A DNA stretch of 64,000 nucleotides from Anadara kagoshimensis. Its lineage: Eukaryota; Mollusca; Bivalvia; Arcoida; Arcidae. The notes beneath the pieces were generated by a model. It had not been told where the DNA came from and made no database searches. It was given only the letters and a program-made list of their open reading frames with translations. The DNA lies in contig CM037870.1 in the NCBI GenBank assembly GCA_021292105.1, forward strand, positions 64,750,515 to 64,814,514, given 5' to 3'. A program made the position numbers and the translations under genes. This document shows positions 4,438-56,724 of the stretch, in pieces (position 1 is the first letter of the stretch; each line of letters starts with the position of its first letter).

Positions 4438-4446
4438 TATATAAAA
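4438..4446 (+). promoter_or_regulatory. TATA box of gene 1
   Basis: TATATAAAA lies 62 bp before the ATG at 4500. All five paralogues have a TATA box at 62-69 bp. A CAGATAAGG (GATA-type) motif lies about 65 bp further upstream; its use is untested. Confidence 0.7.
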
Positions 4447-4499
4447 GTAAGGACCTGTGCCTTGGTTTTAATTGTGTTAGTTTTAGTCAAGCACTGAGC

Positions 4500-7400
4500 A
4501 TGATTGGAAACAAGCACCTGTTGTTGTTGGCTGTATTTACCCTTGCGGTATTATTACATACAGGTAAGTTACGTCATAGTAACGTCATAACTACTGTAAC
4601 TAGTTATAAAACACGTATATATACTAGCAACTCTTCAGGTACTTAAATAATTCTTCAAAATACAACAAAATTTTATTACTAGTTGAAAGACTAACAATTG
4701 CTTCCGTTTTTGTCATACTTTTCATTTTAAATAAAATTTTACGTAGATCTATTTTTCCGACTTACGTTTATTCCCCTCAACGAAATTGTCACACGAATAC
4801 TAACACGAGCGTCCTCATAGCAAATACTCGTAATTTTTTTAAGTATAATTTTTAGACAGATTTACCTATTTTTCATCTATGTAGACAAGTACACCATTTT
4901 CTGTCTCATTAGAGCATTATATATAACAAGTATAGTTCATACACACTCTGAATCGTGCTCCAAGTTCCACAATTATTCAATAACTAAAACCTTCCTTGAC
5001 TTAATTTTGACAGATTTTATATCTCAATAATTTTTGTTAGTTTCTCAGATATTCAGGGATTTAAGGTGTCACTTTGAAAATCATACCAAGTAATTTGTAT
5101 TTGTTTTTGTCAAAAATGTTATCTTAGAATGTTAAAATAGTTCAGAAATAGATAGCCAAAATTTGTTAAATTTAGAGAAAATATTAGATAAGAAATGATT
5201 GTGAAACTGGGGCTAAATAATCCAAAATACCTTAATTAAAAATGATTGTGAAACTGGGACGAAATAATCCAAAATACCTTCATTAAAAATGATTGTGAAA
5301 CTGGGACGAGGTAATCCAAAATACCTTAATTAAAAATGATTGTGAAACTGGGACGAAATAATCCAAAATACCTTAATTAAAAATGATTGTGAAACTGGGA
5401 CGAAATAATCCAAAATACCTTAAATAAAAATGATTGTGAAACTGGGGCTAAATAATCCAAAATACCTTAATTAAAAATGATTGTGAAACTGGGGCTAAAT
5501 AATCCAAAATACCTTAATTAAAAATGATTGTGAAACTGGGGCTAAATAATCCAAAATACCTTAATTAAAAATGATTGTGAAACTGGGACGAAATAATCCA
5601 AAATACCTTAAATAAAAATGATTGTGAAACTGGGGCTAAATAATCCAAAATACCTTAATTAAAAATGATTGTGAAACTGGGACGAAATAATCCAAAATAC
5701 CTTAATTAAAAATGATTGTGAAACTGGGGCTAAATAATCCAAAATACCTTAATTAAAAATGATTGTGAAACTGGGGCTAAATAATCCAAAATACCTTAAT
5801 TAAAAATGATTGTGAAACTGGGGCTAAATAATCCAAAATACCTTAATTAAAAATGATTGTGAAACTGGGACGAAATAATCCAAAATACCTTCATTAAAAA
5901 TGATTGTGAAACTGGGGCTAAATAATCCAAAATACCTTAATTAAAAATGATTGTGAAACTGGGACGAAATAATCCAAAATACCTTAAAAAAATGATTGTG
6001 AAACTGGGGCTAAATAATCCAAAATACCTTAATTAAAAATGATTGTGAAACTGGGACGAAATAATCCAAAATACCTTCATTAAAAATGATTGTGAAACTG
6101 GGACGAGGTAATCCAAAATACCTTAATTAAAAATGATTGTGAAACTGGGACGAAATAATCCAAAATACCTTAAATAAAAATGATTGTGAAACTGGGGCTA
6201 AATAATCCAAAATACCTTAATTAAAAATGATTGTGAAACTGGGGCTAAATAATCCAAAATACCTTAATTAAAAATGATTGTGAAACTGGGGCTAAATAAT
6301 CCAAAATACCTTAATTAAAAATGATTGTGAAACTGGGACGAAATAATCCAAAATACCTTAAATAAAAATGATTGTGAAACTGGGCTAAATAATCCAAAAT
6401 ACCTTAATTAAAAATGATTGTGAAACTGGGACGAAATAATCCAAAATACCTTCATTAAAAATGATTGTGAAACTGGGACGAGGTAATCCAAAATACCTTA
6501 ATTAAAAATGATTGTGAAACTGGGACGAAATAATCCAAAATACCTTAATTAAAAATGATTGTGAAACTGGGACGAGGTAATCCAAAATACCTTCATTAAA
6601 ATGATTGTGAAACTGGGGCTAAATAATCCAAAATACCTTAATTAAAAATGATTGTGAAACTGGGACGAGGTAATCCAAAATACCTTCATTAAAATGATTG
6701 TGAAACTGGGGCGAAATAATCCAAAATACCTTAATTAAAAATGATTGTGAAACTGGGGCGAAATAATCCAAAATACCTTCATTAAAAATGATTGTGAAAC
6801 TGGGGCGAAATAAGGCAAAATACCTTAAATAAAAATGATTGTGAAACTGGGACGAAATAATCCAAAATACCTTAATTAAAAATGACTGTGAAACTGGGGC
6901 TAAATAATCTAAAATACCTTCATTAAAATGATTGTGAAACTGGGGCTAAATAATCCAAAATACCTTTATTAAAATGATTATGAAACTGGGACGACATAAT
7001 CCAAAATACCTTCATTAAAATGATTATGAAACTGGGACGACATAATCCAAATACCTTGTTTGACTTTTTAACGCCGAAGTTTAATAACGCATAACAACAT
7101 TATCAATTATTTTCTTATTCTTCTGTTTTACATGTTGTTGAAAAACCCATTGCAAATTAGTATAAAAAATGGATTTTCAAATTCATACTTGAAGTATATA
7201 CTTGTGTCAAGAAAATACTGAACAATATTGTCGATAACTATTGCTCTCTGTATACAAAATTACCCTTGTTATATTTGATATGTTACACCAATAAAAGAAC
7301 CACATAGTAAAATGTTTTCACGGTATATTTTTAACTTTTATGTGTATATTTTAAAAGTATCTACTACTATGGATTTCTCATTTCAGTAACATCTCAAGAC

Positions 7401-7643
7401 CCCCAGTCCTTGTCTATTGCCCCACCCTGGCCGCCATGGGGAGGCGGTGGTGGTGGCGGTGGCAGAAGAACGTGTGGATGCTTTTGGAGGAGAAACTCGT
7501 GTGGTCCCTGGGATACTTGGTGTCGAGGTCGACGACATTCAGGACCAGGAGGGGGTTGTCCTTGGGGGTGGTATGAATCCTGGAGGGGTAGAAGATGGTG
7601 CTCATGGCGACAAGTCCGTTGTTGTAGAAGGCGAAGATGGTAA
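4500..7643 (+). CDS. Gene 1: secreted Trp/Arg/Cys-rich peptide, 106 aa
   Basis: Exon 1 (4500-4563) encodes a hydrophobic signal peptide starting MIGNKHLLLL and ends in phase 1 at CAG|GTAAGT. Exon 2 starts at 7387 after TTTCATTTCAG and encodes the whole mature part. This has an N-terminal stretch ending in PPWPPW, a run of seven glycines (GGT/GGC repeats), then C-X-C-X6-C-X6-C-X11-C-X13-C-X6-CC and RRRRW. The mature chain has 8 cysteines, 11 tryptophans and about 16 arginines, so it is strongly basic. The donor G|GTAAGT at 7640 lies inside the last Trp codon. Both the unspliced (TGG TAA) and spliced (TG+G TGA) messages end at the same Trp. Its C-terminal third (CPWGW...WCxWRQxRCC) is closest to gene 2. 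No family is recognised. A secreted defence or effector peptide is an inference from composition. Intron 1 holds the 47-bp array. Confidence 0.8.
5190..7058. repeat. 47-bp minisatellite, about 40 copies, in intron 1 of gene 1
   Basis: The unit begins ATGATTGTGAAACTGG and spacing is exactly 47 bp in the units I measured (5195, 5242, 5289, 5336). Variants (GGGACGAAA, GGGGCTAAA, GGGACGAGG) occur in an order that repeats: units 1-10 match the order of units 18-26, so blocks of units were duplicated. The left flank (AAATTTAGAGAAAATATTAG) is the end of MITE family B, which seeded the array. Confidence 0.95.
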
Positions 7644-7702
7644 GTCGCGAGCTTTGATGATGTAATTTCATGGTGCAGTAAAATAATATGTGTGCGCCAA
7701 TG

Positions 7703-8093
7703 TACAGTACAGACCTGTCTAAAGTTTAACAATTAGCTAACAAAATGGAACCGAACTGGGTCGCTAATTGGCCGAGATAGGGATACCAAGTGACCGAAAA
7801 GCTGTCGGGAGATAGATAACTGCTACCTAATAGATATAGCTTACCCGGGGGGGGGGGGGGATGAGATTCCCATTAGGTACTATAGTTTAAACAATATAGG
7901 ATTCTGGAACTAGAGAATATCTCTAATATATACCAGTCTCTTATACCTAAATAAAACTTAAACATCTAATAAAGGTGTATAATCAATTGCATAATAATAA
8001 ATTGTGGTGGAATTATAATAATTCTATTTTAGGTACTATGATTACTATATATCGTTATCTCGGTGTTAAACTTTCGACAGGTTGGTACTGTAG
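7703..8093. mobile_element. MITE family A copy in intron 2 of gene 1
   Basis: The left end TACAGACCTGTCTAAAGTTT and the right end TTAAACTTTCGACAGG..GGTACTGTA are inverted. The interior carries the family's GACCGAAAAGCTGTCGGGAG segment and a 14-bp poly-G at about 7847. Confidence 0.75.
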
Positions 8094-23451: not shown

Positions 23452-23458
23452 TATATAA
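23452..23458 (+). promoter_or_regulatory. TATA box of gene 2
   Basis: TATATAA in GGGTATATAAGGTGG lies 69 bp before the ATG at 23521. Confidence 0.7.
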
Positions 23459-23520
23459 GGTGGATATCTATACATATTTCTTACACAGGACAAAAAACCT
23501 TAACGGTTACCACGGCAACA

Positions 23521-24786
23521 ATGGACCTTAAGTCTGCTTTATTACTTGGTGTTATAGCATTAGCATGCCTCCAAGTCTCTAATGTAGAAGGTAAGATTAT
23601 ATATTCCGCGAAATCATTTTTGTTGTTTTCGTGGATGGCCTGACCCACGGATTCACATGTTAATGGAATCCACGTAGTTTATATTACAAACTTACTTTAA
23701 ACGAAAATCACAAACAACGAATTTACAACACAACAAAATGGTATTTTTAAACCACGAAAACCGGACTCCACGAAAAAAAACCGATTTTACGGTGTTCAGC
23801 TTGTTTTAGCCTCAACTGACACGTGCATTGGCGTGATTGTTCTGAACCATCACACTACCCCCAGCAAATTATCCTATCATATTTGATAGTGTAAATCGGC
23901 AAATTCCAAAATGAAAATAAGGCTTTCGCGATTATTTTATTTTGATATATTTCACTTGCATATGCATTAACCATTATTCGATGATGCGCAAATACGCGAA
24001 TGTACGATGCTCGCGAAAAATTCCAGATATTCAATTATCCTATAGTAACATAAAACATTACAGATGCTACAATAATATAAGATATAATTTGAAGATGAAT
24101 ATAGAGGTGTGTTGGTCTCTCATCGCAGAGTTTCTAATCCACTAAGACAGAAACTAAAGCATTTTCGGGGTTTATCGGAGGTTATATCATGTATACGATA
24201 TAGGCTACTCAGCATTGTGCCGCATATTTGACCTTTGTAATGAAATAAGGATTCAAATTTACTACGGATTTCTATTAATCTTGCATTGAAAATGTTCGTG
24301 TGCCACAACGCTTGGTATGGGAATCATTTCATTTTGACATCCAGCCACCATGAAAGGCGAGTGTTTTTATCATCAGTGGTAGCTGTACGCGTTTGTCTTG
24401 GAATTGCATTTCTATTATTTGTTGTGGTTTGTAAAGTTGCAATATCTAGCTATTGACATATTAACACTACTTTCATTTATTTATTTCCATGTTTTTTTTC
24501 TTTTTTATTTTGGTTGTTGTTATTAATGTTGTTATGATACTATGTACTTTGTTTTGTAAAAGGAACTTGGGGTGGAGGCTGGAACAGACCTAGATGTCAA
24601 TGCTTCAGCAGCCATTGGGGAGGTAACCAGTGGGGAGACAATCACTGGGGTGGAGGACACAATCACTGGGACCGCAAGTATGGACACGGCGGTCATCATC
24701 AACAATGTCCATGGGGATGGCATAGAGACTGGCAGAACCATCATTGGTGTCCATGGAGACAGATCAGATGCTGCCGAGGGTGGTAA
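23521..24786 (+). CDS. Gene 2: secreted Trp/His/Gly-rich cysteine peptide, 97 aa
   Basis: Exon 1 (23521-23590) encodes a signal peptide starting MDLKSALLLG with a CLQ motif near its end, and stops in phase 1 at GAAG|GTAAGA. Exon 2 starts at 24563 (acceptor TTTTGTAAAAG, with a weak pyrimidine tract) and ends at TGG TAA (24784-24786). The mature chain begins GTWGGGWNRPR, then CQCF. A 34-residue Gly/His/Trp/Asn-rich linker without cysteine follows, then CPWGW-x8-WC-x6-CC and GW at the end. There are 6 cysteines, 12 tryptophans and 10 histidines. The last 28 residues align closely with gene 1, but the two extra cysteines of gene 1's middle are absent. The His-rich linker could bind metal (inference). 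The exact first codon is supported by the TATA spacing and by the shared exon-1 length of 70 bases in genes 2-5. No known family is recognised. Confidence 0.8.
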
Positions 24787-34470: not shown

Positions 34471-34695
34471 TAAAACACACCTAAAACCAAACCATTCATC
34501 TTTTAATGAATGTTAAACTCAACTGTCACCTTAAAACTGGTTGATTGCTTCCAGGAAAAATTGAAAAATTAAAATTGTATATAGCAAAACGTGAGGTAAT
34601 AGAAAAGGTCTCTAAGCAACATATTTAACACCAAGAACATTGAATTATGTACATTAATTGTACATAAAAATAAAAATGAATCAAGTCTGTAAAGT
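34254..34695. other. Upstream region of gene 3, no gene
   Basis: A (TTA)n tract lies at about 34440-34470. ATTGTACATA at 34657 is shared with the gene 4 promoter (ATTGTACACA at 38921). Confidence 0.45.
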
Positions 34696-34703
34696 ATATA
34701 AAC
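34696..34703 (+). promoter_or_regulatory. TATA box of gene 3
   Basis: TATATAAA lies 65 bp before the ATG at 34761. Confidence 0.7.
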
Positions 34704-34760
34704 GGTAGCTAAGCCTACCATTGTATCTCTGATTCTTCCACGAACGACAAGATCGTCACC

Positions 34761-35843
34761 ATGAACGCAAAAATCATCTTGATAATGGTAATAGTTACCA
34801 TGTGTAGTCTACAAACAGCACTTGTGTCAGGTAAATAGATTTTATTATAACAAACAAATTTGGCTTGTCTGTTTGACCTTTATTAGAATATTCATATATA
34901 TGATCCTCTCAATACATGAGAAGTGTCAGGGTTTCCAAAAACAATAACCATGTTTCCCATGGTAGACTAAGTTCCCTATACATAAATATACTGGTCCAAA
35001 TTATAGGCCAAGACAGCCGGTCAATGTTGTTTGCATAATTATTCGCTGAATTAGGCATCCATATTGTTCTTATTCACCCATGTATCTACAGTGTTGTACA
35101 TATCAGGCCTGTCGAAAGTTTAGCACAACGCTTAAGAATTAGTGCTAAATCGGCAGTTCGTCTCGGTCCCTTTTTAACAATATATCCCGATCAATCGGTA
35201 GGTTTTAGGTTACTGGCAATCCATATATCGGTCATTTGGCAGTCAAGCATCGATTTTTATTCGTTAGATTAGTGTTAAATTTTCAACAGATATGGACTAT
35301 ATTTTGTGCTATTATAGTGTGTATTTTGCGCAGTTTTTCCGTGAAGGTTCGATATTTTATACAATTATGTTTAGGGATAATTTTTGGTTCCTGATAATGC
35401 AATATTCAATTGGTTACATGTACATGTACTGTTATTATTTTTATTTATTAGTCTGAAATAACGCCAACAAATGGTGGCGGTAAATTAGATAGAGGTCGTC
35501 AGTTAAGAGTTCCCAGTGAAAACCACACCAACCTTCGGCAATCGATCTAACAAACTTTGTCATATTAGGATCTTCTCGAGCGGAAATCGAACCAAGGCGG
35601 TAAGAGGCGCCATGAGCCTTAAGCGTGCGCTTCAGACCACTCGGCCACCCACCCACCCCCATAAATCGAGGCTTTATTTTATATGTATCGTCATTGATTA
35701 CAGGTACATGGTATAACAACAACTGTTACTGTCAACCTCAAGGATGGAAATGTGATATTGGATCATTTCCGAGTAACCCACAAAAATGTTTTGGTTGTAA
35801 ATGGTTGGATACATGCTGCTGTTACGGAGGAGGAGGCTACTAA
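34761..35843 (+). CDS. Gene 3: secreted eight-cysteine peptide, 69 aa
   Basis: Exon 1 (34761-34830) encodes a signal peptide starting MNAKIILIMV with SLQTALVSG at its end, and closes in phase 1 at TCAG|GTAAAT. Exon 2 begins at 35704 after TTGATTACAG and ends with TAA at 35841-35843. The mature peptide of about 45 residues has the framework C-X-C-X6-C-X11-C-X2-C-X5-CCC, begins TWYNNNCYC and ends YGGGGY. It has 3 tryptophans and is nearly neutral, unlike the basic genes 1, 4 and 5. FPSNPQKC aligns with ASHPRRC and PSHPQRC in genes 4 and 5, which makes paralogy secure. Intron 1 (34831-35703) contains MITE C, MITE A and SINE insertions. The donor after the stop is TACG|GTTAGT at 35848. Function unknown; an effector or antimicrobial peptide is an inference. 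Confidence 0.82.
34851..35036. mobile_element. MITE family C copy 3, in intron 1 of gene 3
   Basis: TTGGCTTGTCTGTTTGACCT at left and GCCGGTCAATGTTGTTTG at right. The interior CATATATACTGG-like segment matches the copies at 11.7 and 12.5 kb. It is more diverged. Confidence 0.6.
35098..35293. mobile_element. MITE family A copy, in intron 1 of gene 3
   Basis: CAGGCCTGTCGAAAGTTTAG at left and GTGTTAAATTTTCAACAG at right. Confidence 0.65.
35481..35665 (-). mobile_element. SINE with tRNA-Leu-like head, in intron 1 of gene 3
   Basis: On the - strand: GGTGGCCGAGTGGTCTGAAG, then GGTTCGATTTCC (B box) after a long variable arm, and a body with GCCGAAGGTTGGTGTGG. It ends about 40 bp before the exon 2 acceptor of gene 3. 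Confidence 0.7.
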
Positions 35844-36206: not shown

Positions 36207-36290
36207 GTCCAGTTTCACGATGACAGACAGGCTACAGGCTATATATAGTTTTGTCTAATTAATAAAATAATATAAATATAGACTATTGTA
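36207..36290 (+). other. Gene 3 exon 3 (3' UTR)
   Basis: The acceptor TTTTTTTTTTCAG ends at 36206. AATAAA lies at 36261-36266. Confidence 0.6.
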
Positions 36291-38951: not shown

Positions 38952-38958
38952 TATATAA
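38952..38958 (+). promoter_or_regulatory. TATA box of gene 4
   Basis: TATATAA lies 63 bp before the ATG at 39015. ATTGTACACA lies 31 bp upstream of it and resembles ATTGTACATA upstream of the gene 3 TATA box. Confidence 0.7.
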
Positions 38959-39014
38959 TCCGGTCTCATGGTCTACCTGAGTATTCCACTGCGGCCCAGG
39001 CACTGTGCTACAAC

Positions 39015-40365
39015 ATGAACTCCAAAGCTATCTTTCTTTTGGTTCTTATAGGCATATTTTGCCTCCAAACAGCCACTGTAACAGGTAGGTTTCATTCGTA
39101 TTCGTTGTGTTTTATTTTCGTTGTACTACAACAAACATTTTGTTTGGTGGTGAATTCGTGATTACCTTATGTAAATTGTAATATATGCCATTTCATTGAT
39201 TTCTGATTTTGAGGGTCAGGATGCCGATAAACGGACAGACAAACAAACAAACAAAAATAATAATAGAAATAATAAAAATAAATAAATAAAAACCGATAAT
39301 GGGAATACAGGAAAGTTTATGATTTTGCGTATAATGTTACCGTTTAATGTATTTTTGTAATACTAGTATTCCGTTGATCTCTGATTTCGTTGATTATGAT
39401 GCCGACGGTCTGCGAAAATAGTAAACTTGGGCTTCACGAAAATAAATGATTTTGCAGTATAATATTCGTGAGTATAGATTATTTGCCACATACAAGTGAC
39501 TTGAACCACACAAATGATTACCATTTTGGTATCATAATATTTACAATAAGAATTGACCTTCTTTAGATGAATCTGTTAAGTTTTCGTTGTCTTTAAATCA
39601 TTAAAGAATACGATGTGGGACATGTACATAGAGCGATTTAAAAAACAGTTTTAATAAAACAACATAATTACGTAAAAATTGTCCCTATTATACTTTCTTA
39701 CTGGATTGCATTAAACGTGATGTTATAATAAGAATACCCATGGTGATCATAAATAAATAAATAAATAACATTACCTGATGCGTGTGTTGTGCTTTCAATT
39801 TTTTTTCAATGTTATAATGTTCCTTTCTGACAAGATTAAAAACACAATTTCGTAACTATAGCAATGCTATCTTTGTTTTTTTCTCCATCTATCAATATAT
39901 GAATATTTTGATAAAACAGACTGTGTTTAATAATATTAATTTAATTGATCTTATCTGACCCTAAATACCTCGATGTTACTTTGAATGAGGCCCTTAGTCA
40001 GTCTTCCAATTTTTTGTAAAAAAAATGAAAGAAAAAACATTTTGTGGGAAGTATGAAAAGAAATTGTTTTAATCAAAGTTTAACGGAGGCATTTTCATTT
40101 ATTTATTTAAAATCATGCGAAATAAATTGATGGAAACACACTAAAGTTATAATTATTATAATAATTATTATCAGTATGGCGATATTGGTTAAAAGTTTAA
40201 TTATCTTTTTAAGGGTTCTCCAACTATGGTAGTAACAATTGTTTTTGTGTCCCAAAATGGAGACGTTGTCCATGGAATACGTGGGCCAGTCATCCACGCA
40301 GATGCTGGTGGAAATGTGAACGCAAGTGGCATCAGTGTTGTTGTAGAAGACATGGCCCATGGTAG
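39015..40365 (+). CDS. Gene 4: secreted cationic eight-cysteine Trp-rich peptide, 73 aa
   Basis: Exon 1 (39015-39084) encodes a signal peptide starting MNSKAIFLLV, nearly identical to gene 5, and closes in phase 1 at ACAG|GTAGGT. Exon 2 begins at 40214 (acceptor ATCTTTTTAAG) and ends with TAG at 40363-40365. The mature peptide of about 49 residues starts FSNYGSNN and then follows C-X-C-X6-C-X11-C-X3-C-X6-CCC, ending RRHGPW. It has 8 cysteines, 7 tryptophans and about 10 basic residues, so a net charge near +9. It aligns residue by residue with gene 5 (PW, SHP, RCWW, W..CCC). Intron 1 (39085-40213) is AT-rich with no clear elements. The donor after the stop, GATGG|GTAAGT at 40381, opens the 30-bp array. 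Function not recognised; antimicrobial-like composition is an inference. Confidence 0.82.
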
Positions 40366-42720: not shown

Positions 42721-42763
42721 ATCAATAAATTATTAATTTGTTATTCATCTCTTTCTTTTTCAG

Positions 42764-42845: not shown

Positions 42846-42876
42846 ACATTTTAGTTTGTGTGTTATACCGAAAACT

Positions 42877-43610: not shown

Positions 43611-43622
43611 CACACACACACA

Positions 43623-43662
<40 letters not shown>

Positions 43663-44143: not shown

Positions 44144-44261
44144 AGACAATACTATAGTAAAATAAGAAGCTGCATATTTCTATGTATACTAGATATTTAA
44201 AGTGGATTGATGAAGGTTTACGTACCAGTAAAGATTCATTCACTTATATCGAGGCGGTGAG

Positions 44262-44345
44262 TTCAATGATGGTGGGAGAAATCGATGTATCAGGAACAAA
44301 CACCACCTATCTTCGGCAAAGCGAAATGATAAATTTTCTGCCACT
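44262..44345 (-). mobile_element. SINE body fragment
   Basis: TCAATGATGGTGGGAGAAAT and CGGCAAAGCGAAATGATAAA resemble the 13640-13720 part of the class II SINE. Confidence 0.4.
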
Positions 44346-44395
44346 AATACACGTTTCTGTTTCGAATATAATTTTAACCTTGAGGGACAATGTGA

Positions 44396-44397
<2 letters not shown>

Positions 44398-44441
<44 letters not shown>
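44398..44441. repeat. (GT)n microsatellite
   Basis: About 21 GT dinucleotides without interruption. Confidence 0.95.
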
Positions 44442-44443
<2 letters not shown>

Positions 44444-44484
44444 TAGACCAATCGGCCAGCGACACCTCCCAAAAAGATTAATCC

Positions 44485-44730
44485 TTAGTCCGTAGTGACT
44501 TGGTAATCAGGACGTTTGTCCAATACGGTTTGCTGGAAAATTTGTTGTCTCCGGTATGCACAAAACATGATTACTCCAATATCCGCCAATCTGTCATTGT
44601 CGCAGATACAATAAGCACTAACCGAGCCTTCTTTACAACAGCGCATTTGTGAAGGGACTTGAAAAAGACAAAAGGTTAATGTATCTGCACAGTTTTTACA
44701 AGCCCATTCGAAAGCAATTTTCAGAAGCAA
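44485..44730 (-). CDS. Cysteine-containing ORF, 81 codons, possibly an exon
   Basis: The - strand frame reads ...FEWACKNCADTLTFCL... RCCKEGSVSAYCICDND ...IMFCAYRRQQIFQQ. The spacing CxxC ... CCKE ... C resembles the zinc-module-like cytoplasmic domain of P2X7 receptors that also occurs in many invertebrate proteins. The match is by eye and weak. A possible acceptor (CACTAACAAG) precedes it. No promoter or partner exon was found, so it may be chance or a relic of a captured exon. Confidence 0.2.
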   Translation of the reverse strand: MLLKIAFEWACKNCADTLTFCLFQVPSQMRCCKEGSVSAYCICDNDRLADIGVIMFCAYRRQQIFQQTVLDKRPDYQVTTD

Positions 44731-44879
44731 CTTGTTAGTGAAACTTTTTTTTGATTGGTTGATACAATTAGAAGTTTAGACAAAATAAAATCTAGCTGTA
44801 ATAAGAACTTTACTGATCTTCAAAATGGCAGCTTAAATTCCTGAGTATCTTAAAATAAACAAAATTATTACAGTATCAA

Positions 44880-45200
44880 ATTTGCCAGATTTAAGTTAAA
44901 TCGGAAAATCTTAGTTAAGAAATGATTGTGAAAGTTGTCTTAAACAACGAGAAAAAGGAAATCGTAGTTATGAAATGATTGTGAAAGTTGTCTTAAACAA
45001 CGAGAAAAGGGAAATCGTAGTTATGAAATGATTGTGAAAGTTGTCTTAAACAACGAGAAAAGGGAAATCGTAGTTATGAAATGATTGTGAAAGTTGTCTT
45101 AAACAACGAGAAAAAGGAAATCGTAGTTATGAAATGATTGTGAAAGTTGTCTTAAACAACGAGAAAAAGGAAATCTAAGTTATGAAATGATTGCTGATTG
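44880..45200. repeat. 53-bp minisatellite, 5 copies, seeded by MITE family B
   Basis: TTTAAGTTAAATCGGAAAAT (family B end) leads into ATGATTGTGAAAGTTGTCTT units at 44922, 44975, 45028, 45081 and 45134, with a partial sixth at 45187. The first bases of the unit are the same as those of the 47-bp array in gene 1. Confidence 0.9.
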
Positions 45201-46196
45201 CGGTTGCTCAGGAGGAATATAAGAACCTCTGCAAACATTAATTTTCATGGATGAGCGGAAAAGGGAAGGTGTTCGAGAGCTTTAAACCTGTTCAGATATC
45301 TACATCATGTTTTACGATTAGACATGTCATCATGAACAAATTACTTTCAGATGAAGGTTTTGCAAAGTCATAGGAGTGTCGTATTTTGAATGTTTTAGTT
45401 ATTACGCACAGAAAATTTTTAGACTATTATTGGTCACGTGGTATCAAATAACTCATATTGTTTGAAACAGCGGTTTATATTGCCATGGTATATTGTATAG
45501 GCAAATGTTATTACCATGTACGTATTTGTTATACCCGTATAACCGTACGTACTCTTACATACATCGATTGAATAGGATTAAATAGTCAAATTTAGAATTA
45601 AATCCAAATTTTATTCATGTATTGATATTCTTCCAAAGAAATTGCTGCCTAAATAATGGATGCTCGATATTTGATAGTGTTGAACTGCAAAAAAAGATCC
45701 AACTGTATGGTGAAACAAATTAAAATGGCAGATCAAAATGATGTAATATATTTAATCCAATATGACAAATTCTTTTATTTATACTTTAGTTATCACTAAC
45801 CTGGTGTATTTAAGGCATTCATAAGGTTATATATTATTATAAATACGTAATAATAAAATCCGTGGTAATAACACATTTGTTATTGTCACTTACAGGGCAA
45901 TAACCATTTTGTATTGTAATATGTTCACTCCTCCACGGAAACTTAAAACTGTCCGTCACAGAAACTATCATGTATGTTAAACCGTGACGTTGTCAGAATA
46001 AAGGATATAAGAGAACGCCTTTTTTATTCAGTATAATCATAAAGTAAAGTAAACAGTGCCCATATCAAGGATTGTCTCCCCTTTGCAATATAATGTTTCC
46101 TCGGGGAGACAGTCTTTCGATGTATCTATTTATGTACATTTATTTATCGATTTTTAATCAATTTGCAAATCGACTATTGATTATTTAAACGAAATC
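45201..46196. other. No gene recognised
   Basis: AT-rich, without long frames, splice-bounded exons or clear repeat ends. Confidence 0.45.
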
Positions 46197-49100
46197 GGTA
46201 TGTCCAAACCTCCCTTAATTCTATATCAGGACCACCTATTTTTAAAGGCCAGTTAATATTTATCTCAATGGCCTTTTGTTCATGTGATTTGGACCTGCGT
46301 GTAATGGCCTCCTGTCCCTGCCTTAACTCTATATCAGGACCACCTGTTTTTAAAGACCAGTTAATATTTATCTCAATGGCCTTTTGTTCATGTGATTTGG
46401 ATCTGCGTGTAATGGCCTCCTGTCCCTGCCTTAACTATGTATCAGGACCACCTGTTTTTTAAAGACCAGTTAGTTAATATTTATCTCAATGGCCTTTTGT
46501 TCATGTGATTTGGACCTGCCTGTAAGGGCCTCCTGTCCCTGCCTTAACTCTATATCAGGACCACCTGTTTTTAAAGACCAGTTAATATTTATCCCAATGG
46601 CCTTTTGTTCATGTGATTTGGATCTGCGTGTAATGGCCTCCTGTCCCTGCCTTAACTCTGTATCAGGACCACCTGTTTTTTAAAGACCAGTTAATATTTA
46701 TCTCAATGGCCTTTTGTTCATGTGATTTGGATCTGCATGTAAGGGCCTCCTGTCCCTGCCTTAACTCTATATCAGGACCACCTTTTTTTAAAGGCCAGTT
46801 AATATTTATCTCAATGGCCCTTTGTTCATGTGATTTGGACCTGCGTGTAATGGCCTCCTGTCCCTGCCTTAACTCTATATCAGGACCACCTGTTTTTAAA
46901 GGCCAGTAGATATTTATCCCGGCAATGACCTTTTGTTCATGTAATTAGAACCTGCGTTTAAGGGCCTCCTGTCCCTACCCTAACTCTGTATTAGGACCAC
47001 TTGTTTTTTAAAGACCAGTTAATATTTATCTCAATGGCCTTTTGTTCATGTGATTTGGATCTGCGTGTAATGGCCTCCTGTCCCTGCCTTAACTCTGTAT
47101 CAGGACCACCTGTTTTTTAAAGACCAGTTAATATTTATCTCAATGGCCCTTTGTTCATGTGATTTGGACCTGCGTGTAATGGCCTCCTGTCCCTGCCTTA
47201 ACTCTATATCAGGACCACTTGTTTTTAAAGGCCAGTTAATATTTATCTCAATGGCCTTTTGTTCATGTAATTAGAACCTGCGTGTAAGGACCTCCTGTCC
47301 CTGCCTTAACTCTATATCAGGACCACCTATTTTTTAAAGGCCAGTTAATATTTATCTCAATGGCCTTTTGTTCATGAGATTTGAACCTGCGTGTAATGGC
47401 CTCCTGTCCCTACCTTAACTCTATATCAGAACCACCTATTTTTAAAGGCCAGTTAATATTTATCTCAATGGCCTTTTGTTCATGTGATTTGGATCTGCAT
47501 GTAAGGGCCTCCTGTCCCTGCCTTAACTCTATATCAGGACCACCTTTTTTTAAAGGCCAGTTAATATTTATCTCAATGGCCCTTTGTTCATGTGATTTGG
47601 ACCTGCGTGTAATGGCCTCCTGTCCCTGCCTTACCACCTGTTTTTAAAGGCCAGTAGATATTTATCCCGGCAATGACCTTTTGTTCATGTAATTAGAACC
47701 TGCGTTTAAGGGCCTCCTGTCCCTACCTTAACTCTGTATTAGGACCACTTGTTTTTTAAAGACCAGTTAATATTTATCTCAATGGCCTTTTGTTCATGTG
47801 ATTTGGATCTGCGTGTAATGGCCTCCTGTCCCTGCCTTAACTCTGTATCAGGACCACCTGTTTTTTAAAGACCAGTTAATATTTATCTCAATGGCCCTTT
47901 GTTCATGTGATTTGGACCTGCGTGTAATGGCCTCCTGTCCCTGCCTTAACTCTATATCAGGACCACTTGTTTTTAAAGGCCAGTTAATATTTATCTCAAT
48001 GGCCTTTTGTTCATGTAATTAGAACCTGCGTGTAAGGACCTCCTGTCCCTGCCTTAACTCTATATCAGTACCACCTATTTTTTAAAGGCCAGTTAATATT
48101 TATCGCAATGGCCTTTTGTTCATGAGATTTGAACCTGCGTGTAATGGCCTCCTGTCCCTACCTTAACTCTATATCAGAACCACCTATTTTTAAAGGCCAG
48201 TTAATATTTATCTCAATGGCCTTTTGTTCATGAGATTTGGACCTGCATGTAATGGCCTCCTGTCCCTGCCTTAACTCTATATCAGGACCACTTGTTTTTA
48301 AAGGCCAGTTAATATTTATCTCAATGACCTTTTGTTCATGTAATTAGAACCTGCGTGTAAGGACCTCCTGTCCCTGCCTTAACTCTATATCAGGACCACC
48401 TGTTTTTTAAAGGTCAGTTAATATTTATCTCAATGGCCTTTTGTTCATGAGATTTGAACCTGCGTGTAATGGCCTCCTGTCGCTGCCTTAACTCTATATC
48501 AGGACCACCTGTTTTTAAAGGCCAGTTAATATTTATCTCAATGGCCTTTTGTTCATGAGATTTGGACCTGCATGTAAGGGCCTCCTGTCCCTGCCTTAAC
48601 TCTATATCAGGACTACTTGTTTTTAAAGGCCAGTTAATATTTATGCCAATGGCCTTTTGTTCATGTGATTTGGATCTGCGTGTAATGGCCTCCTGTCCCT
48701 GCCTTAACTCTTTATCAGGACCACCTGTTTTTAAAGGCCAGTAGATATTTATCCCGGCAATGGCCTTTTGTTCATGTAATTAGAACCTGCGTGTAAGGGC
48801 CTCCTGTCCCTCCCTTAACTCTATCAGGACCACCTGTTTTTAAAGGCCAGTAGATATTTATCCCGGCAATGGCCTTTTGTTCATGTAATTAGAACCTGCG
48901 TGTAAGGGCCTCCTGTCCCTGCCTTAACTCTATATCAGGACCAACTGTTTTTAAAGGCCAGTTAATATTTATCTCAATGGCCCTTTGTTCATGTGATTTG
49001 GACCTGCGTGTAATGGCCTCCTGTCCCTGCCTTAACTCTATATCAGGACCACCTGTTTTTAAAGGCCAGTAGATATTTATCCCGGTAATGGCCTTTTGTT

Positions 49101-49411
49101 CATGTAATTAGAACCTGTGTGTAAGGGCCTCCTGTCCCTGCCTTAACTCTATCAGGACCACCTGTTTTTAAAGGCCAGTAGATATTTATCCCGGCAATGG
49201 CCTTTTGTTCATGTAATTAGAACCTGCGTGTAAGGGCCTCCTGTCCCTGCCTTAACTCTATATCAGGACCAACTGTTTTTAAAGGCCAGTTAATATTTAT
49301 CTCAATGGCCCTTTGTTCATGTGATTTGGACCTGCGTGTAATGGCCTCCTGTCCCTTAATTTCACTTTGTTGGTACCCGTTGGGTGAGCTTTATAGACAA
49401 GTGTTACTGTA
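46197..49411. repeat. 108-bp minisatellite, about 29 copies, within MITE family D ends
   Basis: The unit includes AGGACCACCTGTTTTTAAAG, CCAGTTAATATTTATCTCAA, TGGCCTTTTGTTCATGTGAT and GGCCTCCTGTCCCTGCC, and is close to 108 bp. The array is entered from GGTATGTCCAAACCTCCC and left through TTATAGACAAGTGTTACTGT, a family D terminus. The segment 46690-47450 is repeated head to tail at about 47440-48200 (offset about 748 bp; GGCCAGTAGATATTTATCCC at 46901 and 47649). Since 108 is a multiple of 3, one frame stays open for two units at a time (36-residue repeats starting MAFCSCDLDL); stops every few units and lack of gene signals argue against coding. Confidence 0.93.
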
Positions 49412-50006
49412 TTTAGTATATAAAATAGAGAATTTAATTTTTTATTGTCAATTTAAATATAATTTTAATTTAAATTAATGCTGGTAAAGGAAAACGTAGG
49501 GTATAAATTATTGATGAGTTTGATTTTATTTTGAAAGTTTTACACTTGTCAAAACAACTCAAAGTCACTGATATATTATACAAGGTCATCAAATTATGGT
49601 TATTAAAAGTATGAAGATATTAAAAGTTAACTATATATGTCATAGAATTCACCTTTTCCGGATAATTATAGCAGGTCCGGTCCGTTTCTCAATTATCACG
49701 TGACATAATTATCTATCTACGCCCATATTTTGGCTTTATCATGGCGGTTTTGTCAAATCAACTAAAAAAAATATTGACGTTTTCTAGGAAATCTGGTTAT
49801 GTAAAATATTTTTCTTGTACATCAATCATAACAAATGTAAAGTAAACAAGAAAAGGTCTAGTTTCAACATTTAATACAAAGAACAAAAATGACAAATGTC
49901 AGCTGGATTTCCTTGTGCTCATTGAACCCTTTTAAATGTTTGAAAAAAAGGTTAATGCACAATGCATCTTTTGTCTATAATTTATCAAGCCAAAAAACAG
50001 CTGTGG
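49412..50006. other. Upstream region of gene 5, no gene
   Basis: AT-rich. AATGCACAATGCATC lies at about 49952 and TTATCAAG (inverse GATA type) at 49982, before the TATA box. Confidence 0.4.
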
Positions 50007-50014
50007 TATAAATA
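50007..50014 (+). promoter_or_regulatory. TATA box of gene 5
   Basis: TATAAATA lies 63 bp before the ATG at 50070. Confidence 0.7.
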
Positions 50015-50069
50015 GCCCTAGTTTTCTCTTCACATCGATCATTAACCCAGCCGGTGTCAAAGATACAAC

Positions 50070-53000
50070 ATGAATTCTAAGGCGATATTTATTCTGGTTT
50101 TAGTTGGCATTTTGTGCTTACAAACCTCCGTCGTATCCGGTACGTATATTCAATATTCACGGGTGATTTTTCATAGTTATTCACGAGTGATTTTAATAAT
50201 TTTTCAATACTTTTAGATCTTGCAAAGTGGAACTTTTACTCTCACAATGTTGTTTTAACTTTGCATCAGCCCTTATTCAGCTATTCGCAATCAGAGCAAG
50301 TTTGTTTATCGCTAAAGATTAATTTCAAAACATGATCGCGTATGCGTGAGGTGTGCGAGTGTGTTTTATGGTATGCTTTGCACTAGTGGGGATAACGTTT
50401 TGTTAAGGCCAAGTGGTGCAAATGGGCACTATCCTACAAGTTTCTGATTTTTTCATGCTGGTAAATCTTTTTGAAGCGCATTCGAAAATGTAAAAAATAT
50501 AGGGGTCCCCTTTTTACTTTTTTAGCTATAAAGCGTAAAAAGTAACAAATCTTGGAATTTTAACGTAGGCTAAATATGAAATCGCATTTTTCAGGCACTG
50601 AAAAATTGAGAAAAGTGTAGAAAAATAACAGTTAGTCCTACAAGTCTTTAAAAAAGTAACATAATGTAGTTCAAATTTTAAATTTTCTGAAAATAAAAAA
50701 AAACATATGTCCCCTTGCTTTTTTTTCTTTTTTTTTTCAAAGACGTAATATAATGCCAAAAATATGACCAAAATTAGCAATAACGTCATGATGTTTACGA
50801 TATTAAAAAGAATCGGCAAACTTGCGAACTTTTACGTGATCGTGTTGTAAACTAGGAATGTTGCTTTTGTGCTTCTTGTTGTTATGGTAAATATATAATT
50901 TTTATTATTTGTATAAAATTTTATCAATTAGATTATTTTGTATTCCTAGCCCCTGTATAAAAATAATTGTTACAGAAATAATGGTATTAAAAACAAATAA
51001 AGTTTAAAGTCAAAGTGCATGAAAAAATACTGAAATTCTAATTCTCAAAATCTAAAAGAATTTTGAAAATCGAAACAATATTTAAAAAGATATAACCATC
51101 AAATTTTGTGCGGCAACGTCTTTATAAATTGAAGTCAACCATTAGTATCTGTAGAATTTATCCCTGTACCGTATTTGTATATTTTCATTTATTTTTAAAT
51201 TGATAGATGTTATGTATTTTACTCCCTGTAAGTTATTTATAAAAATTATTACAGTTACTTGAGTGAGTACTTAAAATAGTACCATCAGAGCGCATAGATT
51301 TGTACACGGTGTGCGTAACGTCAGCGTCCATTTGTACCACTTGGCTTTAACCTTGTCATTTTGATGTAAGGGGTCCTCCAACTGTTTATTATATACCAGG
51401 ACTGTTCAAGGTCGGTTATTCCTAACTTGTTTATGATATCCGGGACCTGTGCCAAGTCGGGACTATCCACGCCCAATTATTATATCCGGTTCCTGTTCCT
51501 AGTATATTATATAATTAATCAATTCCATCTTTTATGATTGGCTTAAATGGTAACACGTGACCATTTGATCTCACACGATATACTACAGATTTCTGCAAAA
51601 AATCTAGTGTATATCAAATGCAGTTTACGTCATCGAATTTTGTTGACATTCTCCGCGGCGTAAAACGGTTATGACGTCATCAATTTAGTGTGTACAAGTG
51701 ATTGTTAGTCATCCGGAATGCCACATATATATATGGACAAAGTACAAAGTCAGATGTTCCAACATTCGGACCTATTTCCAAGTCGGACGATTACACACTT
51801 GTTTATCATATCCGGTCTCTGTTGTAAATCGGAAGTTTTCACACTTGTTTATAATATCCGGTCTCTGTTCCAAAGGGAAAGTTTCAACACTCGTTTATCA
51901 TATCCGGTCTCTGTTCCAAATCGGAAGTTTTCACACTTGTTTATAATATCCGGTCTCTGTTGTAAGTCGAAAGTTTCAACACTCGTTTATCATATCCGCT
52001 CTCTGTTCCAAATCGGAAGTTTTCACACTTGTTTATAATATCCGGTCTCTGTTGTAAGTCGAAAGTTTCAACACTCGTTTATCATATCCGCTCTCTGTCG
52101 CAAGTCGGAAGTTTCCACACTTGTTTATAATATCCGGTCTCTGCTCCAAAGGGAAAGTTTCAACACTCGTTTATCATATCCGGTCTCTGTCGCAAGTCGG
52201 AAGTTTCCACGTTCGTTTATGATATCCGGTACTGTTCCAAGTGGGGTGTTTACACGCTGCTTCATTTTTCTCGGAACCTGTTCAATGTTGATAGTTTCCA
52301 TACACGTTTATTTTATACGGGGCAGAATGCATGTAGAGAGTTGCAAATAAATAGTGACTGTTCTTTCGCAAAATACTGGGCATTTAGAAATGAAAGTTAC
52401 GGGGTCCTTCGGAGGAGACATTAAAAACCGATGTACCGTGTCACGACATGCGTGGCACTTGGAATAACTTCCTTGCACATAGCCCCGAGCACACTGCAAA
52501 GGCAAAAATTTCTAACACTTCACCTATAGCTGGTGGCGTGAAATATTCTTAAGTCCGGTTCAATCAACCAATCACGTGTAAATAGGAGTACTATAACTCG
52601 TTTTTGTGTCCGTTTATCGCTTTCACGTATACATGTAAGGGATATCACATTGTTAGGCTCGTAAACAATGCGATATCAAACTTGTTGCACGTCTAGGAAA
52701 GTACAATAGTTAATCGGATTACGTTGATTGTGTCCTCGGGTACTGGAACCGATTCAAAATCACTACCGACCTACTGAGTAGTGAATACTTCTCAGATTCT
52801 GCTTTTGTTGTTGTTTTAGTGTTAATATTTTCAGCGAAAAAATATTTTTAATTTTTTTCCAAAAATCTTTCAACTCTTTGCTAAATATGTTTACTTTGAA
52901 TTTTTTGAGCATTTGGGTTCAAATCCCATCGCCGACGTTTCTTTTTTTCTTTAATAATTGAAGGGGAAAATATCTATTTGATAAATTATCTCAAGTGAAA

Positions 53001-53977
53001 CAGAACTTTCGGAATAGACTACAAAAGAAAAGAAAATTGCCATGAAATATCAGAAATATCACAGCGTCTAAAAGACGTGTTAATCTGGGGATCGTGCAAC
53101 AAGTGGCAGTTACAGCTCGTGTTTATCTAGTAAATGTTTACAATTTGTCAGGGTGTAAATATGTAAACGGTCACATGGTGTTATAATATGACGACATTAT
53201 TATGTTCTTTTTTCTACACACTTAATATCTATGTATACCATAAACTCTTTGCAAAACTATGTCTAATGATTAATCTGGAGTATAAAGGCGGGTGACTTTT
53301 CGGTCATCATGCACTTGACAAAAAGTAATCCCAATTTTCAAAACGGCGGAAGGATAAAACAATTGCGATTCTAAAACCGAACACAAAATTCTTGGGAAAA
53401 GACGAGTTGGCGTTCCTGCTGTTGGGGTTAAGGTTTGTTATAGTTTTAGATTCTGCATTGACTGAAATAAGAGCCGTTTAATTTATTACCATCCAGGTCA
53501 GCTTTTACAGATTAAAAAACGTGGAATCCCTGGCCTTATGTCCGCTGAATGAAAAAAGAAAGGTGTTGTTTCATTAATACGGCTGTCGTTGAAACTAGAA
53601 TTTGTCAAAAGTCGGGAGTTTTTAAAATAGTATTTTTTGCTAATTTTGAATGTCTGTAATAAATGATACCGGAACTGTTGTTCTGTGGTTATAGTGCTGC
53701 ATCCCCATTTATTCTACAACCAGTTGTCCATAAATATGCGCATTTAATAATAGTTATTATTATTATTATCTCTTTAAAATTAAAAACGAATGAGTGAAGA
53801 AGAACGTAATAAGGATGAGAAGATTCTTACACTTACATCGTGGCTGTCAGTTAATGAAAGATGGAGAAAAACTAGAGTTCATAGAGAAAACCACCGACTT
53901 ACGACGGGGGGGGGGGGGGGGGGGGGGGGGGTTACAAACTTTGGATTCTCGAAAGAGCACCCGCTATTCCGAGGGAC

Positions 53978-54010
<33 letters not shown>

Positions 54011-54341
54011 CTAGTCTTTCGTCCCTATACCCAAGTTGGACAATCGATTTGCACATCAGAATCGCTACGGATCTCCAACAGAGTTTCTTCTGGCTTCGTC
54101 CTACTCAAAATACTGTTGCAATAAGTGAGACGGAATAGTTAAAGAGGACATTACAACGAGGTTTTTCTGTAATTTTATGTTTGTTTTCTTCACAGGAACC
54201 TTTGGTGGACACGGATGTGTATGTGTAAGTAAATGGAGTAGTTGTCCGTGGAAATATTACCCAAGTCACCCTCAGAGATGTTGGTGGAGGTGTCAACAAT
54301 TCTGGAAACGATGTTGCTGTCCTTGGTTTGGCGGCTATTGA
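50070..54341 (+). CDS. Gene 5: secreted cationic eight-cysteine Trp-rich peptide, 71 aa
   Basis: Exon 1 (50070-50139) encodes a signal peptide starting MNSKAIFILV and ending SVVSG, in phase 1 at TCCG|GTACGT. Intron 1 is 4.06 kb (50140-54195), the longest intron of the cluster. Exon 2 begins at 54196 after TTTTCTTCACAG and ends with TGA at 54339-54341. The mature peptide of about 47 residues starts TFGGHG and then follows C-X-C-X6-C-X11-C-X3-C-X6-CCC, ending PWFGGY. It has 8 cysteines, 6 tryptophans and a net charge near +6. It is the closest paralogue of gene 4: same signal peptide start, same cysteine spacing, and shared SHP and RCWW. The 3' UTR donor ACAG|GTTAGT at 54359 opens the 59-bp array. 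Function not recognised; a defence or effector role is inferred. Confidence 0.82.
50140..51374. other. First part of gene 5 intron 1, nothing recognised
   Basis: AT-rich with A- and T-rich tracts near 50690-50740. No repeat ends or frames of note. Confidence 0.4.
51375..52310. repeat. 46-bp minisatellite with diverged start, gene 5 intron 1
   Basis: GTTTATCATATCCGGTCTCT and its GTTTATAATATCC variant repeat every 46 bp (51802, 51848, and so on), with about ten good units in 51765-52230. Older units (TTTATGATATCCGGGACCTG) lie at 51375-51500. Two unit types alternate, suggesting a 92-bp dimer. Confidence 0.85.
52318..52575 (+). mobile_element. SINE, 5'-truncated, gene 5 intron 1
   Basis: GTGACTGTTCTTTCGCAAAA, GTCACGACATGCGTGGCA and CACCTATAGCTGGTGGCG, with an AATCAACCAATC tail. 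The tRNA-like head is missing. Confidence 0.65.
52576..54195. other. Rest of gene 5 intron 1: poly-G tract, otherwise nothing recognised
   Basis: A run of about 26 G lies at 53906-53931, flanked by GACTTACGAC and TTACAAACTT. The two frames crossing it are held open by the G run and are not considered genes. Confidence 0.5.
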
Positions 54342-54358: not shown

Positions 54359-55190
54359 GTTAGTTTTTGACGCCTATAAGACGCATTTTATTGATATCTG
54401 TTTATGGCTATGCGAGTGTTAGTTACTAACGCCTATTAGACGCATTTAATTGATGCCTGTTTATGGCTATGTGAGTGTTAGTTACTGACGCCTATAAGAC
54501 GCATTTAATTGATGCCTGTTTGTGGTACCGTGAGTGTTAGTTACTGACGCCTATAAGACGCATTTAATTTATGCCTGTTTATGGATATGCGAGTGTTAGT
54601 TACTGACGCATATAAGACGCATTTAATTGATGCCTGTTTGTGGTAATGTGAGTGTTAGTTACTGACGCCTATAAGACGCATTTAATTGATGCCTGTTTAT
54701 GGCTACGCGAGTGTTAGTTACTGACGCATATAAGAAGCATTTAATTGATGCCTGTTTGTGGTAATGTGAGTGTTAGTTACTGACGCCTATAAGACGCATT
54801 TAATTGATGCCTGTTTATGGCTATGCGAGTGTTAGTTACTGACGCCTATAAAACGCATTAAATTGATGCCTGTTTGTGGTAATGTGAGTGTTAGTTACTG
54901 ACTCCTGTATAACATGCATTTAAATCATGCCTGTTTGTTGTAATGTGATTATTGGGTAATGTCGCCTATAAGACGCATTTAATTGATGCCTGTTTATGGT
55001 TATTTGAGTGCAAGTTACTGATGCCTATAAGATGCATTTAAATAACGCCTGTTTGTGGTAATGTGAGTGTTAGTTACTGACTACCATATAAGACACATTT
55101 AAGTGACGCCTGTTTGTGATTATTTGAGTGTAAGTAACTGGCACCTATATAAGACGCATATAATTGACGCTTGTTAGTGGTTGCCTTTAG
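54359..55190. repeat. 59-bp minisatellite starting at the gene 5 exon 2 donor
   Basis: GTTAGTTACTGACGCCTATA AGACGCATTTAATTGATGCC and TGTTTATGGCTATGCGAGT form the unit (space added), about 14 copies. The first unit begins with the splice donor itself (CAG|GTTAGTTTTTGACGCC), so every later unit carries a GTTAGT donor-like start. Confidence 0.92.
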
Positions 55191-55473
55191 GCCTCGGTGA
55201 ATGTTACTTTGATCAGGTCCGAATAATCCCATATCCACCTCATCAAAAGTCAATAATTGTAAATCAATTATTTTTTGTTAATTTTCAGAACTGATGTCAA
55301 GATACAGATAAAGAAACAACCGCTGATTTTAAAATTTTTAAATTGACATAAGAAATAACAGGTCATGATTATATAATATCAATTACGTAGATATTACAGA
55401 AGATATTTACTTATTTCGTTTGTGTTTTCTTTTACATGAAACTTATTGACGTGTCATTACCTTTGATTTTTTT

Positions 55474-55565
55474 CGGTCCATTGAGAAATAACTTGAATGG
55501 AGACTGTGCATTTTTTGCATAAAAAGTGCACACAGTCTCCATTCAAATTATTTCTCAATAGACCC
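55474..55565. repeat. Strong hairpin, about 35-bp arms
   Basis: TTGAGAAATAACTTGAATGG followed by AGACTGTG pairs with CACAGTCTCCATTCAAATTA followed by TTTCTCAA, around a loop of about 20 bases. The outer GGTCCA and TAGACC also pair. There are only two or three mismatches or bulges. It is either a foldback element or a structured RNA segment. Confidence 0.8.
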
Positions 55566-55589
55566 AACAAAGATACATACAAGACATTG

Positions 55590-55815
55590 CTTAACTAAGG
55601 TTTTCCGAAACTTAAATATGACAAATTTGAAATCCTAATTATTTTGTTACTTTTCAAAATATCAAAAATATTGAGGTGTCATTTTGAAGATCTTTTTCGT
55701 TATTCCACTTTTGTCAAAATGTTTTATTTGTAGCATTGTAAAAGTTGTCCAAATTTTGTTAGATTTAAGTTAAGGAAAATCTTAGCAAGAAATGATTGTA
55801 AAACTAGAGCTGTTA
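55590..55815. mobile_element. MITE family B, most complete copy
   Basis: Left TTAACTAAGGTTTTCCGAAA then CTTAAATATGACAAATTTG; right CAAATTTTGTTAGATTTAAG then TTAAGGAAAATCTTAG, which are inverted over about 40 bp. The right end plus AAATGATTGTAAAACT is the seed of the 47- and 53-bp arrays. Confidence 0.65.
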
Positions 55816-56724
55816 AAACCGAAGTCCCGTTTCTCAGTACAATCTAAAGACACAGCTGTTATACTGCTCCGCAGCTAGTTAACCAGTTCACGTCAAAACC
55901 AAAACAAACGAGTATTAATGTAATGATGGATGCATAATTACAAATAAGGCGCCCAAACAAATAAAAATCAAACCCTGTATTCAGAACTCTTAATAGGATG
56001 ACTTTTGTCGCATTTTTCCATATCAATGGCAACGGCTGCCATGTTCAACTTTAAATAAGTTCTACATACAATAGAAAATCTGCAGAGAAATCCAATTACT
56101 TTTTGCCATTGTAAAAGTGACAACAAAATATGATCACTTAGCATAATTTACAAAATGTATCATTTACTCATTTACATGAGATTACATTATTGTAAACATG
56201 TACTTCGTTAACCCTTTTTTCTATCAAATACCAGGTTTCAAAACTTAAAAATATGTTAATTAAATAGTAACACTTATTTCAATCCCAGTATGCATTATAA
56301 GAAAATTTAAACTTGTAATATTAATTTCATTTTAAGTTTTAATTTTATATATAGAAGTAGTACATGAATCCAATTGGTTGAAATTCAAACAATAAGGCAA
56401 AGTTGATTGACATCGCCTATACCCAATATCACAACCTGTTGTTTTGATGAGCTAATGATGTGTTGATTTTAAATTAATCCAAGCATTTATCTATGTAATG
56501 TCATATTGCTAACTAAATGCAGCTACTCTATCGAATTGAATAATAAATCATGCTCCAGGGATAACTGACCATTAGTGTTGCTTATAAAAAAAATTTAGCT
56601 TGAGAGCTTTTGGACATGGATCAGGGATTACTAACGTATCCTTGACAATGAAAATTCATGCTTATTGTTTTAATTCTTAAACAAAATGATAGCAACCATC
56701 CCATGAAGAAAACTATAGTTTGAG
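55816..56724. other. No gene recognised
   Basis: AT-rich intergenic sequence without long frames. Confidence 0.45.

Follow-up and report, generated by a model that had tools for sequence, protein, structure and literature searches.

A tandem cluster of genes for secreted tryptophan- and cysteine-rich peptides in the ark clam Anadara kagoshimensis, with partial likeness to defensins

New cysteine-rich effector families are not rare in bivalves, and defensins are among the described systems closest to the one reported here. In beta- and trans-defensins C1 and C2 are separated by 4-8 residues, C3 and C4 by 9-13, and C4 and the terminal CC by 4-7; their fold is of three antiparallel beta strands, with disulphides Cys1-5, 2-4 and 3-6. 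A C-X-C start occurs in the sea anemone beta-defensin-like group. The six-cysteine beta-defensin-like pattern has four spaced cysteines and then CC near the C-terminus (PMC6627431), and in the beta- and big-defensin gene plan a phase-1 intron lies at the 5′ end of the cysteine-rich region (PMC7203481). We compared with these a locus of A. kagoshimensis in a 64-kb stretch (the window; C14:64750515-64814514, where C14 stands for contig CM037870.1), in which five genes, labelled g1-g5, follow one another on the + strand. These genes are real, and undescribed as far as sequence, profile and literature searches reach. With a probability of about one half, we read them as ark-clam genes for secreted, disulphide-stabilised peptides, most likely of host defence, which look like defensins and may work like them.

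Spliced precursors built by script are intact for all five genes (106 amino acids for g1, 97 for g2, 69 for g3, 73 for g4 and 71 for g5), and in 5 of 5 the junction of exons 1 and 2 has a GT donor, an AG acceptor and phase 1. An earlier note, made by reading the DNA, had described a cluster of five tandem genes with junctions 4563/7387, 23590/24563, 34830/35704, 39084/40214 and 50139/54196; each gene is intact at its position and each junction is exact. It may be added that the leaders were judged to be signal peptides by eye and not by a predictor. The features are as follows (window positions).

4438..4447, + strand: g1 TATA box, -62 from the ATG
4500..4563, + strand: g1 exon 1, signal peptide (by eye); GT donor, phase 1
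7387..7643, + strand: g1 exon 2, mature peptide; 8 Cys, 11 Trp, charge +13; stop TAA at 7641-7643
23452..23461, + strand: g2 TATA box, -69 from the ATG
23521..23590, + strand: g2 exon 1, signal peptide (by eye); junction read
24563..24786, + strand: g2 exon 2, mature peptide; 6 Cys, 12 Trp, 10 His, charge +5
34695..34706, + strand: g3 TATA box, -66/-64 from the ATG
34761..34830, + strand: g3 exon 1, signal peptide (by eye); junction read
35704..35843, + strand: g3 exon 2, mature peptide; 8 Cys, charge +1
36207..36280, + strand: candidate start of a g3 3′ untranslated exon; acceptor tttcag at 36206/36207, polyA-type signal at 36261, end guessed
38952..38961, + strand: g4 TATA box, -63 from the ATG
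39015..39084, + strand: g4 exon 1, signal peptide (by eye); junction read
40214..40365, + strand: g4 exon 2, mature peptide; 8 Cys, 7 Trp, charge +9
50007..50016, + strand: g5 TATA box, -63 from the ATG
50070..50139, + strand: g5 exon 1, signal peptide (by eye); junction read
54196..54341, + strand: g5 exon 2, mature peptide; 8 Cys, 6 Trp, charge +6; model of three beta strands

A six-frame scan of the window for the pattern C-X-C, 15-75 residues, CC found 5 places, exactly g1-g5, against a mean of 0.835 and a maximum of 4 in 200 dinucleotide shuffles. With at least 3 Trp inside the pattern, 4 real places stand against a shuffle mean of 0.01 (maximum 1), g3 being the sole gene with fewer than 3. 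As this motif was picked after the genes had been seen, signals independent of it weigh more. A TATA box lies at -60 to -69 from the ATG in 5 of 5 genes, the background being 3.8% of the 1152 + strand ATGs of the window with a TATA box at -72 to -57. The non-synonymous proportion of differences (pN) is below the synonymous one (pS) in the signal and the mature parts of all 4 gene pairs counted (10 are possible); for the mature part pS/pN is 0.684/0.277 in g4/g5, 0.786/0.386 in g1/g2, 0.887/0.486 in g3/g4 and 0.690/0.475 in g3/g5. One-sided Fisher tests on rounded counts give p from 2.6e-6 to 0.042, the weakest value belonging to the mature part of g3/g5, and the frames of the counted pairs are under purifying selection. 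At the DNA level the five gene regions share only one match at E <= 1e-3, of 62 bases, between the signal exons of g4 and g5; given pN below pS in the counted pairs, g1-g5 are old duplicates whose frames have been kept. The same exon junction is read across by a protein of the ark clam Tegillarca granosa, KUTeg_002664. No kappa-B-type sites were found upstream of the genes, a test that is nearly uninformative.

The T. granosa protein came from a profile of g3-g5 run against 5.77 billion proteins, which gave 2 matches (E <= 10) out of 9 candidates, both from this species. KUTeg_002664 (profile E 1.2e-26) carries the full eight-cysteine array and is 60% identical to g4 and 71% identical, the closest, over the mature part of g5. 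KUTeg_002663 (profile E 0.043) has a signal exon nearest that of g4 (80% over 30 residues), and its second half matches exon 2 of g4 in a different frame (tblastn E 6.7e-12); in this public gene model exon 2 of what is a g4-like gene is read out of frame, which shows how genome annotation misreads genes of such type. The two locus tags are consecutive, paralleling the neighbours g4 and g5. Both proteins are clear homologues, but they are hypothetical proteins without a name. An array like that of KUTeg_002664 together with a leader exon is exact in g4 and g5 and one residue off in one or two loops in g3 and in g6, a sixth gene type on another contig; g3-g6 are clear relatives of this arcid protein. 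g1 and g2 join the family only through their gene plan, their neighbourhood and the C-X-C...CC core. So far the family is seen only in ark clams.

That the peptides belong to no recognised family, as had been claimed, is borne out by Pfam, NCBIfam and the PDB. Pfam gives no family for the g1-g5 precursors, the mature exons or the T. granosa proteins, and its defensin profiles gave no match at E <= 10 to g1-g5 or KUTeg_002664, where the HMMER filters drop most weak matches. NCBIfam likewise has no family for the peptides, and the PDB, searched by sequence and by profile, returned chance rows only. A protein search with g1 and g2 confirmed 0 of 43 candidates at E <= 10 and one with residues 56-97 of g2 gave zero candidates, both searches seeing only relatives that share short exact words. 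Among viral and prokaryote contigs, searched with the alignment of g3-g5 and KUTeg_002664 only, zero of 39 and of 18 pattern matches, respectively, were confirmed. Literature searches, literal motifs and locus tags included, met no such family in a coverage of mainly titles and abstract starts that leaves most subscription journals outside.

On recounting, the cysteine spacing agrees with that first described, namely C-X-C-X6-C-X11-C-X2-3-C-X5-6-CCC in g3-g5 and a pattern of their own in g1 and g2. The intervals are 1,6,6,11,13,6,0 in g1, 1,34,13,6,0 in g2, 1,6,11,2,5,0,0 in g3 and, identically, 1,6,11,3,6,0,0 in g4 and g5. The shared core is of six cysteines, C-X-C ... C ... C-X5-6-CC. To this g1 adds one pair, both members of which are missing in g2, and g3-g6 add another (C-X2-3-C and the third C of CCC), pointing to one more disulphide for each added pair. 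With residue 25 taken as the first mature residue, the net charge of the mature part is +13 in g1, +5 in g2, +9 in g4 and +6 in g5 and weaker in g3 (+1) and g6 (+3), and Trp makes up 12.8-16.4% of mature g1, g2, g4 and g5. W-X-X-W, a possible C-mannosylation site, is found three times in g1, once each in g2 and g4 and not in g3, g5 or g6. The description of secreted, disulphide-rich, mostly cationic peptides from a tandem mollusc cluster is supported, with relatives in T. granosa and with g3 barely cationic.

A genome-wide search with g4 as query (own genome, 1.115 Gb in 36 contigs) gave 11 matches, 10 of which are exons of g4, of g5, of an inverted g5/g4 copy on C14 (-) or of g6 on C9; the match on C7 (E 0.96) was taken as chance. 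An inverted second copy of g3-g5 lies at C14:64668184-64694872 (-), against window 34761-54341, which places the copies 55.6-82.3 kb before the first base of the window and 90-128 kb from their partners; its g3 came from reading the surrounding stretches, beyond the matches of the g4 search. Among the matches listed, the two arms are 85-97% alike in blocks, many of them within tandem repeats. Between the arms the exons of g3 and of g5 are identical and the g3 intron is 99.3% identical, while exon 2 of g4 differs in two amino acids and in one silent codon. The upstream arm has N gaps of 5000 and 1000; a second g4 exon 1 was not found in this arm and may fall within the 5000-N gap. Because of these gaps the extra copies may come from haplotypes that were left unmerged, without any true duplication, so that the inverted copy on C14 may be a palindromic duplication or an unmerged haplotype.

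The sixth gene type, g6, is present as direct copies 162 kb apart (C9:17596743-17598809 and 17758896-17760953), 86-98% alike in blocks among the matches listed, with 133/134 identical positions in exon 2 and 98.4% identity in the intron. Its plan is that of g1-g5, with a TATA box at -63 in both copies, a signal exon, a phase-1 intron and the array C-X-C-X6-C-X11-C-X2-C-X6-CCC, and the stop is directly followed by a donor-like site, GTAAGG in copy a and GCAAGG in copy b. The upstream region of g3 is shared with g6 (76% over 162 bases). The sequence read around the copies comes to 259.5 kb, of which 70 kb are from C9 and 189.5 kb from C14, the window and 6 kb of N being part of the latter. A looser pattern (12-75 residues) has 15 places in these 259.5 kb, 10 family members and 5 others. 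g1 and g2 occur once each within these 259.5 kb, the genome-wide query having been g4 only.

When the locus is set against the described systems, the beta- and trans-defensins come close in several respects. g1 and g2 end in C-x13-C-x6-CC, and the phase-1 intron stands just before the cysteine exon in g1-g5 (5 of 5) and in g6, as in the defensin gene plan (PMC7203481). In g3-g6 the C3-C4 spacing is 14-15 when the extra cysteine is skipped, followed by 5-6 to CC, compared with 13 and 6 in g1 and g2, and the pattern of four spaced cysteines followed by CC fits g2 only. The predicted structure of g5 is a small sheet of three beta strands with no helix, and a fold look-up of this model returned weak matches that include human beta-defensin 2 and SCRiP1; the predicted structure of g2 was of too poor quality for use. 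What sets the peptides apart from beta- and trans-defensins is the C-X-C start, the eight cysteines of g1 and g3-g6, Trp of up to 16% and the negative Pfam result. Bivalve big defensins likewise encode the cysteine domain on a separate exon preceded by a phase-1 intron, and non-canonical Ruditapes forms (PMC7203481) are without the N-terminal domain, as here. Unlike big defensins, however, our peptides have no hydrophobic N-terminal domain, the signal exon joining the mature exon directly, and they have C-X-C and, 3′ of the stop, a donor-like site.

Cnidarian beta-defensin-like peptides share the four spaced cysteines and CC (PMC6627431), and the SCRiPs are represented by SCRiP1 among the weak fold matches of g5; yet there is no sequence match to either, and the present peptides are of a bivalve, high in Trp and mostly provided with an extra cysteine pair. 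Mytilins and mussel defensins of the CS-alpha-beta type have eight cysteines, as g1 and g3-g6 do, and are also cationic, secreted and of bivalves, and the CCC motif occurs in Perna mytilins too (PMC7168163). The mytilin array C-X3-C-X3-C-X4-C-X11-C-X-C-X-C-X2-C (PMC7168163) is, however, absent from g1-g5, and the g5 model is helix-free. Mussel CRP-I resembles the family in being multigene, secreted, cysteine-rich and of one bivalve lineage, but its knottin array C(X3-6)C(X1-7)CC(X3-4)C(X3-5)C (PMC10138031) does not occur here, and the peptides show no dibasic propeptide between leader and cysteine domain. The earlier note had held that the peptides match neither mytilins nor defensins nor big defensins. 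That view stands for the C-X-C start, the eight cysteines in 5 of 6 types and the mytilin array, but it went too far for defensins and big defensins, since the ending of g1 and g2, the phase-1 intron and the fold matches of g5 fit them.

Secreted peptides that are basic, rich in Trp and locked by disulphides usually target the membranes of microbes, high Trp with positive charge being a trait of membrane-acting Trp-rich peptides, and it is because these properties come together here that host defence is placed first. Exon 1 would give the signal peptide and exon 2, after the phase-1 intron, the mature Cys/Trp-rich domain, with a putative cleavage site and disulphide pairing. The six-cysteine core probably folds, going by the g5 model, as a small three-stranded sheet like that of beta-defensins. 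Secreted presumably by haemocytes or epithelia, the peptides would bind microbial envelopes through their basic residues, and their tryptophans would insert at the membrane interface. Several points weigh against this reading. The C1-C2 spacing is of 1 residue in 6 of 6 gene types, outside the 4-8 of defensins, and there are eight cysteines in g1, g3, g4, g5 and g6, though the six-cysteine core is traceable in them. By analogy, mussel CRP-I H1 may serve as a caution for a lineage-restricted family: according to PMC10138031 it has no significant antimicrobial or protease inhibitor activity, yet may be a defence peptide. As the C1-C2 spacing, the cysteine number in 5 of 6 types and the profile searches all fall outside the defensins, we do not file the peptides as such. 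Tentatively, and with the odds against it, they could make up a bivalve branch of the defensin-fold peptides that has so far gone undescribed, its first strand carrying C-X-C, its surface loaded with Trp and its extra disulphides facultative; this branch would have arisen in ark clams apart from big defensins or by strong remodelling of them and formed an expanded effector cluster of its own. If they are defensin-like effectors, they would form a new set of candidate resistance genes in the ark-clam lineage, and Trp of up to 16% of the mature peptide would offer a natural experiment in Trp-rich membrane binding joined to a disulphide scaffold.

Among other explanations, secreted structural proteins (of byssus, periostracum, shell matrix or mucus), cross-linked by cysteines and using stretches rich in Gly, Trp and His to adhere or to bind metal, are unlikely though worth weighing. 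The run of eight Gly and the PPWPPW of g1, the Trp/His/Gly-rich repeats of g2 with their 10 His, the GGY ends of g3 and g5 and the GYW end of KUTeg_002664 would suit them; g3-g6, however, are short (43-49 residues mature), repeat-free and of fixed eight-cysteine array, and g5 is modelled as a small sheet of three strands. Slightly less probable still are secreted peptides, of this or a different disulphide fold, acting as protein inhibitors, pheromones or signalling ligands and not on microbes. Small cysteine-rich families without shown antimicrobial activity do exist in bivalves, CRP-I H1 for one, but the array here differs from the C-C-CC-C-C of CRP-I and knottins (PMC10138031), and the high Trp and positive charge of g1, g2, g4 and g5 fit membranes better. 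A toxin-like use of a defensin-like scaffold, as a deterrent to predators or competitors, has a precedent in sea anemone beta-defensin-like peptides that became neurotoxins (PMC6627431) and a hint in the SCRiP among the fold matches of g5; these matches are weak, however, and we hold this use to be quite improbable. Ark clams are also not known to possess a venom apparatus, which counts against it. Pseudogenes or chance open frames are strongly disfavoured and come last: the overlap of the g1 stop with a splice donor would speak for them, but the shuffles, the TATA boxes, pN below pS, the T. granosa relatives and g6, of the same plan on another contig, all speak against.

An untranslated third exon had been proposed for all genes. 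For g2-g5 it is plausible, as consensus-like donors lie just 3′ of the stop (24819 in g2, 35848 in g3, 40381 in g4 and 54359 in g5; 4-32 bases after the stop), but for g1 it is doubtful, the stop TAA (7641-7643) sitting within the donor GTAAGT at 7640-7645. Should splicing take place at this donor, g1 would lose its final Trp and its stop to the intron, and the peptide would run into a further exon. With a simple acceptor pattern, only g3 and g5 have downstream candidates (the nearest at 36207 for g3, and 55838 for g5), and another g5 candidate at ~55290 was spotted by eye. Long tandem arrays occupy 5178-7057 (47-base unit), 28890-31946 (77), 41748-42204 (64), 46209-49356 (108) and 54359-55182 (59) of the window; the array at 5178-7057 takes up most of the g1 intron and that at 54359-55182 begins right at the second donor of g5. 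Further along, 61755-63998 (-) holds a 747-amino-acid frame, open at the window end, with a reverse transcriptase domain (PF00078, E 1.1e-36), which is probably a LINE-type element, and the frame at 59690-60430 (-) looks by eye like the C-terminal part of such an element, though Pfam gives no match for it. At 43266-43326 (+) an Rfam tRNA match of 29.7 against a threshold of 29 bits, uncalled by ARAGORN (bacterial code), is possibly a tRNA-derived repeat.

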